A stretch of DNA of 64,000 nt from contig NZ_JAMBOO010000019.1 of assembly GCF_023715895.1 (NCBI RefSeq), forward strand, positions 1-64,000, in the 5' to 3' direction. The notes under the pieces were generated by a model. It was not told the DNA's origin and made no database searches. It saw only the letters and a list, made by a program, of their open reading frames with translations. A program made the position numbers and the translations under genes. How positions within the stretch are numbered: position 1 is the first letter of the stretch; the number at the start of each line of letters is the position of its first letter. Positions 2,552 through 9,663 of the stretch are shown here, piece after piece. The DNA is from Domibacillus indicus (GTDB taxonomy: Bacteria; Bacillota; Bacilli; Bacillales; Domibacillaceae).

Positions 2552-2559
2552 GAAAAATG

Positions 2560-2640
2560 ATAAAGGCAAACTTGCCGAAAGGTAAGGACGCAAAGCCACG
2601 GGTCTACCATTCTTTTGAATCATGACAGCCGGGCTGCCAA
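2560..2640 (+). ncRNA. Cyclic di-GMP-I riboswitch aptamer (GEMM-I)
   Basis: The stretch matches the GEMM-I consensus part by part: GGCAAAC, a stem capped by a GAAA tetraloop (CTTGCC GAAA GGTAAG), the near-invariant GGACGCAAAGCCACGGG, a variable arm, then AGCCGGGCTGCC closing the P1 stem with GGC. This aptamer binds the second messenger c-di-GMP. It lies 54 nt upstream of the GTG of the DegU-like regulator on the same strand, so that gene is the evident target. There is no clear T-tract terminator; a hairpin over the ribosome binding site suggests translational control. Confidence 0.93.
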
Positions 2641-2647
2641 ATAGGGA

Positions 2648-2687
2648 CTCCTTCCTTGTTTGGATCATTATTTAATAAAGGAAGGGA
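2648..2687 (+). promoter_or_regulatory. Hairpin covering the degU-like ribosome binding site
   Basis: TCCTTCCTT (2649-2657) is complementary to AAGGAAGGG (2678-2686), which is the Shine-Dalgarno sequence of the GTG start at 2694. Nine pairs with a 20-nt loop would hide the site. The left arm directly follows the aptamer, as expected for a riboswitch expression platform. Confidence 0.6.
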
Positions 2688-2693
2688 TTTAAC

Positions 2694-3395
2694 GTGCGGT
2701 CTATATCTAATGAATCAAAGACTAAAATCGTTCTTATTGACGATCAACAACTATTTCGAGAAGGGATAAAGCGCATTCTTAATTGTGAAGAAACCTTCGA
2801 AGTACTTGCTGAAGGAAAAGACGGTGTTGAAGCAATTGAATTAGCAGATCATTATAAGCCAGATGTTGTGATCATGGATATCAATATGCCAAAAACAAAT
2901 GGTGTTGAAGCAACTCGTAACTTAATCAGTAAATACCCGAATATAAAGGTTATTATTTTGTCGATCCATGATGATGAAACTTATGTTATACACGCGCTTC
3001 AATCAGGCGCTTTTGGCTATTTATTGAAAGAAATGGATACAAAAAAACTGATAGAAGCAGTAAAAGCTGTTGCAAAAGGCGAATCATACTTGCATCCACG
3101 TGTGACACACAAGCTAATTACTGCCTATCGCCGTTTATCAAGTGCGGCAGCTCGTAAAAAAGAGTTTCAACAGCCACCAGTCCGTCTGCCGCTGCATTTG
3201 CTCTCACGCCGTGAAAGTGAAGTGTTGCAGTTGTTAGCAGACGGAAAAAGTAACCGGAGTCTTGCAGAAACGCTTTATATCAGCGAAAAAACGGTCAAAG
3301 GCCACGTTTATAGCATTCTTCGAAAAATGGACGTCAATGACCGCACACAAGCTGTTATCAAAGCTATTAAAAATGGCTGGGTTGAAGTCAGATAG
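2694..3395 (+). CDS. degU: DegU-like NarL-family response regulator, orphan
   Basis: Two-domain regulator of 233 residues. The receiver domain (about 11-130) has the acidic pair D16/D17, phospho-acceptor D62 in VVIMDINMP, and a lysine near 112 in GYLLKEMD. The LuxR-type HTH spans about 170-228 ([26 protein letters not shown]). Similarity to B. subtilis DegU runs over the whole length, including IILSIHDDE and the C-terminal AIKNGWVE. In Bacillus DegU is phosphorylated by DegS and controls exoenzymes, motility and biofilm genes. Here no degS is adjacent and a c-di-GMP riboswitch precedes the gene. It may be the main DegU or a paralogue. The GTG start is supported by AAGGAAGGG 7 nt upstream. Confidence 0.88.
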
Positions 3396-3636: not shown

Positions 3637-4236
3637 TTATTCCGCGATCTTTTCCAGATTACCGTTCTTCTCCATTTTAAAAGCAGGAGACGGGTCATTA
3701 TCAGCTAATAGCACCGTTTGTCTGGCACGATTCATGATCCGCATTAAGGTTTCATAGTCCTCCTGTATCGTAATGTTTTCCTGCTGAGTTTGTTCTAATT
3801 TTTTCTCCAATTCAGCTTTTTCTTCTTTTATGATTACCAGCTCTTTTCGAAGCTGTTCAGCTTCTGCTGCGGAGGCCGCTTTACTCTCTAAATTAGTTAG
3901 AAAAGAGATCACCTGAGCTAAAGAAATACCAAGATTTGTGGAATCCCCTGCTGGTGTCTCAACTGTATGATCTGCCACTTCAATATTTTTCTCTCTTCTA
4001 GCGAGCATGTGGAAATAATCTTTTCTTTGTTTTTTAGCTGTGCCCATTTCCCTTACATACTGTTGTCTAACGACTGCATTCCATCGGAACCCGCAGGCTG
4101 CGGCCGTTCTGTTCAACCTGTCTCCTGCTTCTTCAAACGCTTTCAACTGGGTACTTCCCTCACGTACATATCGTAATACTGTTTCAGCAAGCAGCCAATC
4201 ATTTTCCTCTGACCAGGCATCTTGTCTTTCTTTCAT
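3637..4236 (-). CDS. rsfA: RsfA-family prespore-specific regulator
   Basis: A 199-residue protein whose N-terminal 80 residues match RsfA/YlbO: RQDAWSEENDWLLAETVLRYVREG, a Myb/SANT-like helix bundle, then RTAAACGFRWN and KKQRKDY. A long coiled coil (about 120-170, rich in E, K, Q) follows. In B. subtilis RsfA fine-tunes sigma-F-dependent genes in the forespore, so this gene marks a spore former. A GGGGGAGA ribosome binding site precedes ATG 4236. Homologous DNA including this upstream region recurs at 37.9-38.0 kb as a truncated copy. Confidence 0.88.
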   Translation of the reverse strand: MKERQDAWSEENDWLLAETVLRYVREGSTQLKAFEEAGDRLNRTAAACGFRWNAVVRQQYVREMGTAKKQRKDYFHMLARREKNIEVADHTVETPAGDSTNLGISLAQVISFLTNLESKAASAAEAEQLRKELVIIKEEKAELEKKLEQTQQENITIQEDYETLMRIMNRARQTVLLADNDPSPAFKMEKNGNLEKIAE

Positions 4237-5810: not shown

Positions 5811-6782
5811 TTACAAAAGCTGCTTCTTTTTAAAATATCTCCACATTCCAAACGTTAAAAGGATAAGCGCCAAAAGAATAATAACAGTAGCGAAGGGAGA
5901 ATCCTGATAAGGCAGAGGCACATTCATCCCAAAAAAACCTGTCACAAAGGTTAAAGGCAGCATAATGGTTGAAATTAATGTAAGAACATTTAATTTTTCG
6001 GATGACTTTGCATTGATGATGGAATAATACGTATCCAATGCGCTGTTAACCAGATCCCTGAATGTTTCAGTCGCATCGACAATCCGCTCCAGATGATCAA
6101 GCAAATCCGTGTAAAATGGAACATTTTCTTCTCTAATATCGAACTTCCATTTACCATTAACCGTTAAAAAGATCCTGCGCTGCGGTAAGATTACCCGCCG
6201 GATCAATATAATTGTACGTTTTAGGGCTAAAAACTCTTCCGTGACACCCCTGATGGATTCATCATAAATCTCGTTTTCTAACTCATCGATACGAATACTA
6301 ATTCGGTCTAGAATAGGGAAATATTCATCTGTAATCCCATCAATTAAAGCGTATAAAAGAAAGTCCGCCCCTTTATCCATATACTTCGTACTTCTAGAAC
6401 AGATTGCATCCATTTGTCCAAGCCATCTTAACTTGTGCTTATGAATGGTTACCACATAATTCGGGCCAACGAAAACGTTAAGCTCAAGAGTTGTAATTTC
6501 ATTATCACTTTCCTCGTTATACCGCAGGGCATGGAGAACGAAAAACTGATAATCCTCATAGTTATCCATCTTTGCCCGCGGGCTGTCATGAAGGCAGTCC
6601 TCAATGGCCAAAGGATGAAAATCAAAAATCTTGGCTATTTCATACAATTCACGGCTTTGCACATCATAGATATCAATCCATAATAAACTATCGGCATGGC
6701 TTAAATGCCTATGAACATCCGATAAGTTGATATTGGAGACCATTTCTTGTTTATCATTTCGATAAAGATATGTTTTAATCAT
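5811..6782 (-). CDS. corA: CorA-family Mg2+ transporter, copy 1
   Basis: A 323-residue membrane protein of the CorA metal-ion transporter family. A long cytoplasmic N-terminal domain (1-260, including HPLAIEDCLHD near 55 and the YDESIRGVTEEFLALKR helix) is followed by two C-terminal membrane helices. The signature GMN ends the first of them (GFFGMNVP, near 285) and a basic tail follows. The family forms pentameric Mg2+ (sometimes Co2+/Ni2+) channels. ATG 6782 has GAGGTGA upstream. An M-box riboswitch with terminator lies upstream in the same transcript, which strongly supports Mg2+ as the substrate and induction under Mg2+ starvation. Confidence 0.92.
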   Translation of the reverse strand: MIKTYLYRNDKQEMVSNINLSDVHRHLSHADSLLWIDIYDVQSRELYEIAKIFDFHPLAIEDCLHDSPRAKMDNYEDYQFFVLHALRYNEESDNEITTLELNVFVGPNYVVTIHKHKLRWLGQMDAICSRSTKYMDKGADFLLYALIDGITDEYFPILDRISIRIDELENEIYDESIRGVTEEFLALKRTIILIRRVILPQRRIFLTVNGKWKFDIREENVPFYTDLLDHLERIVDATETFRDLVNSALDTYYSIINAKSSEKLNVLTLISTIMLPLTFVTGFFGMNVPLPYQDSPFATVIILLALILLTFGMWRYFKKKQLL

Positions 6783-6983: not shown

Positions 6984-7011
6984 GTAAAAAGTCTATTTAC
7001 GTTTTACATGT

Positions 7012-7170
7012 CCCCCCTTGTTGAGTTTTAGCACTGTATAGCATAGGCATGAACCAGCTGCGTTAAGAAAAACCTTAATCCGATCTTTCCTGTTGACCCA
7101 TTGGCGTCTTTCGACATTTTTGGGCAGCAGCGTATCTCTATACAGGAGCCTCACCTAACAGAAGACGTAT
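7012..7170 (-). ncRNA. M-box (ykoK leader) magnesium riboswitch
   Basis: Read on the minus strand, conserved M-box blocks occur in order: TTAGGTGAGGCTCC, GAGATACGCTGCTGCCC, AAAAATGTCGAAAGACGCC, AATGGGTCAACAG, then GCAGCTGG...CATGCCTATG..ATACAGTGCTAAA. This is the Mg2+-sensing leader of B. subtilis ykoK (mgtE). Here it precedes a corA gene, with an intrinsic terminator following. The aptamer limits are approximate by about 10 nt. Confidence 0.95.
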
Positions 7171-7251: not shown

Positions 7252-8712
7252 GGCGAGAACACCCCCACTTCAAGCTTGCTAAGAGGGGGATGAATCGTTG
7301 CTCTTTCAGTCATTCTTTTTCCTTGAACGCTCTATTGCTAAAATGGTATAATTAGGTACAGAACAAACGTTCAGGGGATGAGGAAAATGATAAAAACCAA
7401 AAAAGATGAAAAAAAGAACCTTCATTTTAAAGCCTTTCGGTTTAAAATCCATCCAAGTGACAAGCAAAAACAACTGATTAATCAAACGATCGGCTGCTGC
7501 CGGTTTGTCTACAATTATATATTAAATGAAAACATCAAGAGTTTTGAAAAAACAAAAAAACGGTATACAGAAACAGCTGCTAAAAAGCTCCTCCCTGGGC
7601 TAAAAGAAACATTTAAATGGTTGTCTAGTTCTGACAGTATTGCTCTTCAGGCAAGCATCGAATATCAGTACGAAGGATTCAAAAAATATAAGGAACAGCC
7701 GAAAAAAGAATTAAAAAAACGAGCCGCTAAAAAATGTGCAGAAGGCTATACGCCAACGGCGTATGACTTTAAGGGCCATCCGACATTCAAAAGCAAGAAA
7801 AACCCGGTCCAAAGCTACACAACCAAAATGACAAATAACAATATTAAAATCGTGGACAATCGCATTCAGCTGCCGAAACTCGGCTGGATTCGTTTTTCAA
7901 AGTCCCGAAACATTGAAGGTGACATTAAGCGTGTCACCGTGCGCCGAAGCAGCACCGGCCGGTATTCGATTTCGGTTATCTGTGAAATGCCATATTCCCC
8001 CTATAAGCCAAGCACTGACGATGCCGTTGGCATCGATGTCGGGCTGAAAGAATTTGCTGTACTCTCAAACGGCCAATTCATCGCCAACCCGAAATACTAC
8101 CAGAAATACGAAAAGCGGTTAGCCTTTCTTCAGCGTGCGTTTGCACGTAAAAAAGAAGGTTCGAAATCGTGAGGAAAAAATAAAGTCCAGATTGCTAAAC
8201 TGCACGAAAAAATCAAACACACAAGAGAAGATTTTCTTCACAAGCTGACGACCAGGCTCGTTCATGAAAACCAAGTGATCGCGGTGGAAAGTTTGTCAGT
8301 GAAGAATCTCGTCCAAAGTAAAAAGCGAAGCAAGGGGATTCACGATGCGTCATGGTCGAGGTTCAACGAAATGCTCGCCTACAAAGCGAAGTGGTACGGA
8401 CGGACGATCATAAAAGTCGATCCGTTCTTCCCATCAAGCCAGCTTTGTTCGGGGTGTGGCCACCAGCATAAGGATGTAAAAAATCTCGCTGTCCGGGTGT
8501 GGGAGTGTCCATCCTGCGGCGTATGTCACGACCGGGACTTGAATGCAAGCCTAAATATTGAAAAAGAAGCCCTTCGGCTTCTTTCACTTCTGTCTATTTA
8601 AACTTGGTCATAAAACCGTTGGAATACGGGGTTAGCCTGATTACTGGGGGTCGAAGATCCTCTTGCCCAGGAATCCCCCACTTCAACCGTCAGGTAGGTG
8701 GGCGGTAGTTCA
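7252..8712 (+). mobile_element. IS605/IS1341-type element, tnpB only
   Basis: The tnpB pseudogene is flanked by typical subterminal hairpins: left CCCCCACTTCAAGC...AGAGGGGG (7262-7289), right GAATCCCCCACTTCAACCGTCAGG...GGTGGGCGGTAGTT (8671-8710). There is no tnpA, so mobility would depend on a TnpA in trans. The right end abuts the last codon of the second corA gene. The 3-prime part of tnpB plus the tail to 8711 would encode the guide (omega) RNA, whose guide would be the host DNA beyond 8712. Exact ends are inferred. Confidence 0.8.
7378..8601 (+). pseudogene. tnpB: TnpB RNA-guided nuclease, split by one in-frame stop
   Basis: One frame of 407 codons interrupted only by TGA at 8170-8172. 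The N-terminal wedge/recognition part begins with the AFRFKIHPSDKQ pattern. RuvC residues are all present: Asp220 (VGIDVGLKEF), Glu304 (IAVESLSV) and Asp387 (HDRDLNAS). A zinc ribbon (CSGCG ... CPSCG) lies in between. In relatives the stop position holds a tryptophan or similar residue, so TGG to TGA is a plausible recent mutation. TnpB is a programmable dsDNA nuclease that helps retain its own transposon. Downstream GTG 8275 could start only the C-terminal fragment. ATG 7378 follows a GGGGATGAGG stretch. Confidence 0.88.
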
Positions 8713-9663
8713 ATCGCTGTCAAACCAGCCTTTAGACTTAAACCAAATAAACATTCCCAACCCAATAAAGAACATCACGCCTAAGATTATATAGTACCCA
8801 AAACGCCATTTTAATTCGGGCATATTTTCAAAATTCATTCCATAAATCCCGGCAATAAAGGTTAAAGGCATAAAAATCGTCGTAATCACGGTTAAGGTTT
8901 TCATAATATTGTTCATTCGAAAAGAGTTTAACGATATGTAATTATCTCTTATATCCGAGGTCAGTTCCCGGTTTGATTCAATCATTTCACTCAGCTTGAG
9001 GAGATGATCGTATATATCCTGAAAATAAGCCCGCTTTTGTTCCTGAATAATAAACCTTTTTGATTCTAGTATCCTGTATATTAACTCTCTCATTGGCATG
9101 ATGGTTCGCCTTAGTTTCAACAAATCCTTTCGAACTCCAAATACTTTGTTAATGAGCGTATCCGTCGCTTTTTTTGATCCGTAATAATTTTCAACGGAGA
9201 GTAGATAATCCTCCAATTCCTGAACCATCGGAAAAAAACTGTCTACAATTTTATCCATAATTTTGTAGCTTATTTCAACAGGTCTAAAACGATTAACATC
9301 TGTAACCTTCTCAAACATTTCCCATACAGCATTCATTTCTTTCAGGTCTTGAAAATGAAAAGAGACGATGAAGTTCTCTCCCATAAACAGGTCTACCTCA
9401 TGTGCTTCTAGTGTTTTTTTATTTAATGCATGAATAACAAGAAAGCTAAGGTTTTCATAGTACTCCAGCTTGGGACGCTGAAGAAAATGTACGCAGTCTT
9501 CAATCGCAAGTGGATGAAACTGAAAATGACTGCTAAGTAAGAGAATTTCCTCTTTAGTCGGCATGTTAAAGTCTACCCAATACCAATCCATTTCAACGAG
9601 AGTATCCAATGCTGGGTTAATGAGTAGCTGCTTTTCTTTGTCCACAGAAAGTATTCTAATCAT
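8710..9663 (-). CDS. corA: CorA-family metal-ion transporter, copy 2
   Basis: A 317-residue CorA family protein. It has the same layout as the first copy: cytoplasmic domain with HPLAIEDCVHF near 52, a long helix, and two C-terminal membrane helices with GMN (GIYGMNFEN near 282). It diverges clearly from copy 1 and has no M-box; only 470 nt of plain sequence lie upstream. Its stop codon TCA (8710-8712) touches the right end of the TnpB element, so the insertion may have supplied or trimmed the last residues. ATG 9663 has CAGGAGA upstream. Substrate (Mg2+, Co2+, Ni2+ or Zn2+) cannot be told from sequence. Confidence 0.9.
   Translation of the reverse strand: MIRILSVDKEKQLLINPALDTLVEMDWYWVDFNMPTKEEILLLSSHFQFHPLAIEDCVHFLQRPKLEYYENLSFLVIHALNKKTLEAHEVDLFMGENFIVSFHFQDLKEMNAVWEMFEKVTDVNRFRPVEISYKIMDKIVDSFFPMVQELEDYLLSVENYYGSKKATDTLINKVFGVRKDLLKLRRTIMPMRELIYRILESKRFIIQEQKRAYFQDIYDHLLKLSEMIESNRELTSDIRDNYISLNSFRMNNIMKTLTVITTIFMPLTFIAGIYGMNFENMPELKWRFGYYIILGVMFFIGLGMFIWFKSKGWFDSD

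Follow-up and report, generated by a model that had tools for sequence, protein, structure and literature searches.

A putative c-di-GMP-I riboswitch in the leader of an orphan DegU paralog in Domibacillus

In the 64-kb stretch of Domibacillus DNA analysed here (the window), we found a c-di-GMP-I aptamer directly in front of a gene for a second copy of the response regulator DegU, which we call DegU2. Our main reading, to which we give a probability of about 0.62, is that the region is a c-di-GMP-I riboswitch setting the translation of this orphan DegU paralog. We regard it as very probable that the leader of degU2 responds to c-di-GMP and, on the modelled folds, as probable on balance that this response is a translational OFF. 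The placement is real and conserved: a riboswitch of an established class precedes a DegU duplicate that is itself rare. The arrangement is of a known kind, and its target is apparently new. The parts of the region, all on the forward strand, are the following:

2546–2551, +: perfect TATAAT, a possible −10 box by its sequence, kept in five aligned leaders (two of them from the same genome)
2555–2641, +: c-di-GMP-I (GEMM-I) aptamer with the pocket bases G2565, A2592 and C2637
2637–2663, +: hairpin A, 11 bp with a 5-nt loop, −12.5 kcal/mol, a candidate anti-sequestor
2649–2686, +: hairpin B, which in the predicted folds hides the Shine-Dalgarno sequence by pairing UCCUUCCUU (2649–2657) with AAGGAAGGG (2678–2686)
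2677–2687, +: Shine-Dalgarno region AAAGGAAGGGA, recognised by sequence and identical in all four degU2 leaders
2694–3395, +: degU2, an orphan DegU-like response regulator of 233 aa with a GTG start, assigned by its ORF, domains and relatives

The aptamer and its pocket

The window was scanned against all Rfam families with covariance models (cmscan), and clan competition removed a single overlapping, lower-scoring match from the same clan. Two matches over the cut-off remained, an M-box at 7007–7169 (−) and the c-di-GMP-I aptamer at 2556–2642 (+), the latter assigned over its full length (1–80 of 80) to the c-di-GMP-I-GGC model RF03167 with 79.8 bits (gathering score 59, E 2.5e-17). In the whole-genome search, the c-di-GMP-I model RF01051 matched positions 2555–2641 (+) with 91.1 bits against a cut-off of 35 (E 1.5e-18). 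This is the covariance search that a preliminary description of the region had proposed as a check, and it bears out the claim made there of a full c-di-GMP-I aptamer directly before a degU-like gene, the GTG of which follows after 52 nt. Only the aptamer start, which had been put at 2560, was about five bases late; the model starts at 2555.

The GGC variant of this class was reportedly separated by Weinberg et al. in 2017 for an altered pocket and possibly a different ligand. That the window aptamer belongs to it and responds to another ligand would fit the clan competition, in which RF03167 ranks best with 79.8 bits over its cut-off of 59, and also the 20 places in the genome that RF03167 matches, 13 of them over its cut-off. 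These are, however, the same 20 places that RF01051 matches, all 20 over the cut-off of that model, and RF01051 also gives the window aptamer the higher score, in a genome that is rich in GGDEF domains. The consensus lines of both models differ at one pocket-region base, reading ACGCGAAG in RF03167 and ACGCAAAG in RF01051, and it is from these lines that we take the discriminating base (ACGC(G/A)AAG, with G for RF03167 and A for RF01051). The window aptamer passes the RF03167 score cut-off but carries the A of the parent class at this base, as do all 149 aptamers collected from 13 Domibacillus genomes (147 over the RF01051 cut-off; 150 first-look candidates scored per genome). On this base we rejected a GGC-variant ligand for the window aptamer, and we consider such a ligand very improbable.

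At the three pocket positions the window aptamer has G2565, A2592 and C2637, which we take to be G20, A47 and C92 of Vc2. Together with the score over the curated RF01051 cut-off, this G, A, C set places the aptamer in RF01051, and its pocket reads, as far as the bases tell, as the canonical c-di-GMP type; the ligand signature given in the preliminary description is thereby upheld. Among the 149 genus aptamers, 136 have G and 13 have A at the presumed G20 position, and at the presumed C92 position 144 have C and 5 have T. The 3',3'-cGAMP variant of GEMM-I has A in place of G20, and the window aptamer, with its G, falls outside it. In excerpts of one paper, the G20A change is tied to 3',3'-cGAMP binding (PMC6274999), and the ligand of the 13 genus aptamers with A at the position taken as G20, for example G000:C126:408480–408566, may differ.

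A second DegU without a neighbouring DegS

DegU2 combines a Response_reg receiver (Pfam, E 9.5e-31) with a GerE/LuxR helix-turn-helix domain (E 6e-20) and has DegU as its closest relative, which makes it a DegU-type response regulator. A search of solved structures gave VraR and NarL as the best relatives, and among the NCBIfam matches listed (25 of 114) none, equivalogs included, was over its cut-off. The best named relative is from Domibacillus sp. PGB-M46 (96%); outside Domibacillus, the best named relatives are degS-linked and at most 69% identical, with others reaching up to 72%.

The preliminary description had also stated that no degS adjoins the gene, and this holds for the ORFs on both sides: those upstream of degU2 are of at most 112 aa, and the one downstream (3637–4236, on the other strand) has only Pfam matches below the cut-off and looks RsfA-like by reading of its sequence. 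The genome search for another degU/degS pair, likewise proposed there, found exactly one. The only DegS of the genome (PF05384, C121:12419–12895) lies directly before an ordinary DegU (C121:13569–14243), which is 73% identical to DegU2. The designation as an orphan is thus right in that there is no neighbouring degS, but it has to be qualified, since DegU2 is a paralog beside a degS–degU pair; that it might be the only DegU of the genome we rejected because of the pair at C121. Judged by its sequence, the window gene is a second, diverged DegU copy without degS, alongside an intact degS–degU pair.

A second DegU is rare in the order. In an order sample of 199 genomes (without G006, G009 and G010; 14 candidates scored per genome), 192 had a DegU-level match, and two copies were present in one of these 192, the window genome. 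Within the genus, a DegU match at E 1e-60 or better was found in 12 of 13 genomes, the exception (G011) being 77% complete, and a second copy in four of the 13, namely the window genome G000, G006, G009 and G010. The same four are the only ones among 24 genomes of the family with two DegU-level proteins, other second matches being 39–45% identical. At the named loci of DegU relatives, DegS lies just upstream in 79 of 80 cases, and the exception (L031) is Domibacillus degU2. In a tree of 41 rows (four DegU2, 12 of the ordinary Domibacillus DegU, here DegU1, and 25 of the 79 others), DegU2 forms a single group with 100/99 support on a long stem.

The linkage of aptamer and gene is conserved. In all four genus genomes with degU2, the aptamer lies 51–52 nt before the GTG, so that the placement seen in the window held in each of them. 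An aptamer model built from the aptamers of this genome (R1) gave matches in all four degU2 loci searched and found no aptamer in the 79 other named DegU loci or in four Domibacillus degU1 loci, a negative that is mostly sequence-based, R1 having 8 base pairs.

Exclusive hairpins, proposed direction of switching and selection

At the upstream end of the leader, the TATAAT at 2546–2551 has no good −35 box, and a consensus scan gave neither a sigma-70 match nor a promoter hexamer pair at the leader. P1 of the aptamer is short, with two or three base pairs, and might be trimmed if transcription began immediately downstream of the TATAAT. The leader folds with a z-score of −3.58, none of 200 shuffles being equally stable, and an inverted-repeat scan found one 12-nt palindrome only.

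Hairpins A and B are mutually exclusive. C2637 takes part in the first pair of hairpin A, the 5' arm of which shares bases with the 3' strand of P1. Because it starts at C2637, taken as the ligand-contacting C, hairpin A should not coexist with bound ligand. At low c-di-GMP, hairpin A would form and capture C2637, the ribosome site would stay open and DegU2 would be made. With c-di-GMP bound, C2637 and the 3' strand of P1 would be held by the aptamer, hairpin A would not form, and the freed UCCUUCCUU would pair with the Shine-Dalgarno sequence as hairpin B, so that DegU2 would not be made. DegU2 would then tune DegU-type promoters, competing or forming mixed dimers with ordinary DegU, and would, if at all, be phosphorylated by the DegS of the other locus. 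Its targets may differ from those of DegU1, since residues of the HTH recognition region are changed, DegU2 having KTVKSHVNNIL or another 11-residue version (not shown) versus KTVKNHVSNIL in DegU1.

Folding of the four degU2 leaders (given in the order window genome, G006, G010, G009) is consistent with this scheme in part. Under a bound-like constraint, with the pocket bases unpaired and two P1 pairs, the mean probability of an unpaired Shine-Dalgarno sequence was 0.07, 0.00, 0.01 and 0.01, and with hairpin A forced it was 0.54, 0.74, 0.27 and 0.28. The unconstrained full leader gave 0.04, 0.00, 0.08 and 0.14 and prefers the fold in which the Shine-Dalgarno sequence is hidden, so that an open ribosome site would have to be trapped kinetically as the RNA is transcribed. 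Hairpin A is complete at 2663, ahead of Shine-Dalgarno synthesis, and in growing transcripts folded at equilibrium its pair probability was at least 0.998 for ends from 2663 to 2678, 0.36 at 2686 and 0.09 at 2696.

The lower stem of hairpin A is conserved, with seven of seven pairs kept in all 17 leaders compared (four of degU2 and 13 of a family of 107-aa genes). Variation is confined to one-sided changes at two of the seven pairs, which argues for conservation more than for covariation, the covariation support being weak. A generic 65-nt fold, in which the three bases that begin at the C2637 position paired downstream in 8 of 17 of these leaders versus 47 of 132 leaders of other aptamers, does not set these leaders apart.

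The same riboswitch could work with the opposite sign: if hairpin A were a weak intrinsic terminator, c-di-GMP would prevent its formation by claiming C2637 and would switch degU2 on. A scan lists 2637–2663 as terminator-like with the tail ATCATTATTT, and U occupies 4, 5, 4 and 4 of the eight bases after hairpin A in the four degU2 leaders; excerpts of a study in C. difficile describe a c-di-GMP riboswitch that activates cmrRST (PMC6837544). The U run is broken, however, and does not start at the stem, and shuffled sequences give 1.1 (sd 1.1) terminator-like sites where the region has 2. In the 13 sister leaders that share the hairpin, 1–4 of these eight bases are U, and the hairpin is therefore no terminator in general. 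As an intrinsic terminator in general we rejected it for this reason, and for degU2 itself, where we keep the idea, we believe it to be unlikely. For Cd1, the part of the text available describes a c-di-GMP OFF-switch in which the ligand promotes the terminator fold (PMC9262584).

Whatever its sign, the switch may matter little: the leader could bind c-di-GMP and barely regulate, as is described in excerpts on Bc1 of B. thuringiensis, which binds c-di-GMP with hardly any regulation (PMC11218506), or degU2 could be a decaying duplicate. DegU2 evolves faster than DegU1 (dN 0.158 versus 0.008 between G000 and G009, with dS 0.66 and 0.68), and the copy of G006, from the same species as the window (L125 7633–8331), has a D-to-G change in the acidic pair of the receiver that may weaken phosphorylation. 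All four DegU2 retain the aspartate of the DINMP motif, which in G009 reads DLNMR; given these two changes, phosphorylation may differ among the copies. Decay is countered by the fact that all four degU2 ORFs are open and by the omega values of the four pairwise comparisons, 0.02 and 0.08 among close copies and 0.24 and 0.22 in the two with G009, which indicate that DegU2 is under purifying selection. The leader is even better conserved than the gene. Between the window and G009, the most distant copy, 131 of 139 aligned leader columns are identical (94%), and the coding sequence is 79% identical with a synonymous difference of 0.44 (synonymous sites about 56% identical). Further upstream (−300 to −40) the same comparison gave 140 of 274 identical columns, close to unrelated, and against the window G006 had 149 of 275 (replaced) and G010 237 of 266 (kept). 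With the upstream DNA of G009 and G006 drifted or replaced, the leader was kept while its surroundings drifted or moved. We hold a leader of little effect to be quite unlikely. Outside the degU2 group, the leader most like that of degU2 belongs to a 107-aa gene (C169, 85% over query 4–120), a likeness which suggests that degU2 gained its switch by capturing a leader from the ~107-aa gene family.

Other aptamers of Domibacillus and comparison with known systems

The genome is equipped for c-di-GMP signalling, with 20 c-di-GMP-I aptamers (RF01051) and 30 rows of GGDEF matches, of which 23 exceed 100 bits. Besides degU2, the aptamers precede GGDEF and GGDEF/EAL genes and genes for a subtilase, an L,D-transpeptidase-like protein, S-layer-type proteins and the ~107-aa family, functions without a Pfam row being readings of the sequence. 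One aptamer (L023, G000:C158:10665–10758) lies directly before a SinI-type gene (Pfam E 5.2e-12) and another (L020, G000:C11:53281–53365) directly before an Sda-type gene (E 7.4e-12). Of three frames with a SinI domain in the genome, two read as SinR-like with an HTH, and the only stand-alone SinI is the one behind the riboswitch; one of five Sda frames follows an aptamer. Across the genus, custom profiles at E 1e-3 found SinI-like ORFs after 20 of the 149 aptamers in 11 of 13 genomes and Sda-like ORFs after 8 of 149 in 6 of 13 genomes. Among the loci used to build the SinI profile, one has an aptamer that scores under the Rfam cut-off and another an aptamer that only just passes it. One may speculate that core decision regulators (the second DegU, the stand-alone SinI and one Sda) are under c-di-GMP through RNA, with the degU2 leader captured from the ~107-aa family; this broader view is tentative and falls a little short of even odds. 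If true, one second messenger would address the motility/exoenzyme, biofilm and sporulation decisions together. For B. subtilis, the excerpted text of one report has c-di-GMP not controlling biofilm formation (PMC4879592).

The RNA class is known, and published cases already include riboswitches in front of response regulators (CmrRST) and in front of sinI. With the RF01051 riboswitches the window element shares aptamer sequence, structure, pocket bases and the position just 5' of an ORF; it differs in its target, a DegU paralog, and in its platform, a hairpin starting at the base taken as C92 and then a hairpin hiding the Shine-Dalgarno sequence. The Cdi-2-2 element of C. difficile is a class II c-di-GMP riboswitch. 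According to excerpts, it precedes cmrRST (PMC6837544), the regulators of which are OmpR-family proteins (PMC12548384), and it is alike in standing before genes for response regulators that govern motility and colony form, but it activates and lies beside an invertible element. Excerpts on Bacillus methanolicus report a putative c-di-GMP riboswitch before sinI (PMC4342826), again a classic Bacillus biofilm-decision gene, although the target there is not degU; in Domibacillus the sinI arrangement recurs, joined by those of DegU2 and Sda-type genes. Compared with the DegS–DegU system, DegU2 has the DegU domain layout and is 73% identical to the DegU encoded next to degS, but it is a second copy with changed HTH residues, no adjoining DegS and a position behind an RNA sensor.

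In the full-text literature searched, which includes few subscription papers and was available partly as excerpts, we found no c-di-GMP riboswitch before degU, and no paper in it pairs Domibacillus with a riboswitch or with c-di-GMP. Within this literature, DegU appears to be a new target of a c-di-GMP riboswitch. The arrangement would link c-di-GMP with the DegU circuit and need no protein receptor. It would also offer a clean test case for the rewiring of a duplicated response regulator, the duplicate being separated from the kinase gene and preceded by an RNA sensor. Given the SinI- and Sda-type genes that also follow aptamers of this class, Domibacillus would lend itself well to studies of how a second messenger controls the choice of Bacillus lifestyle at the RNA level.

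Some minor observations concern other genes behind these aptamers. The ~107-aa proteins (L015, L016, L021 and orthologs) stand behind 13 of the 149 genus aptamers and share the degU2 leader design; a sister genus (L270) seems to have such proteins too, two in a row. One representative each of the 107-aa, fam7 and fam9 small proteins gave no Pfam family over the cut-off. Genes that read as folE-like (GTP cyclohydrolase I) follow c-di-GMP-I aptamers in G002:C7, G003:C2, G004:C44 and G010:C40 (loci L170, L142, L153, L165 and L146), and in G002, G003 and G004 such aptamer genes lie in tandem. Elsewhere in the window, the M-box magnesium riboswitch at 7007–7169 (−, 147.5 bits) precedes a corA-type magnesium transporter gene at 5811–6782 (−) and is ordinary; a second ORF, at 8710–9663 (−), reads as CorA-like, and the ORFs at 7378–8172 and 8275–8601 (+) look, by reading, like parts of a transposon-associated OrfB/TnpB gene.
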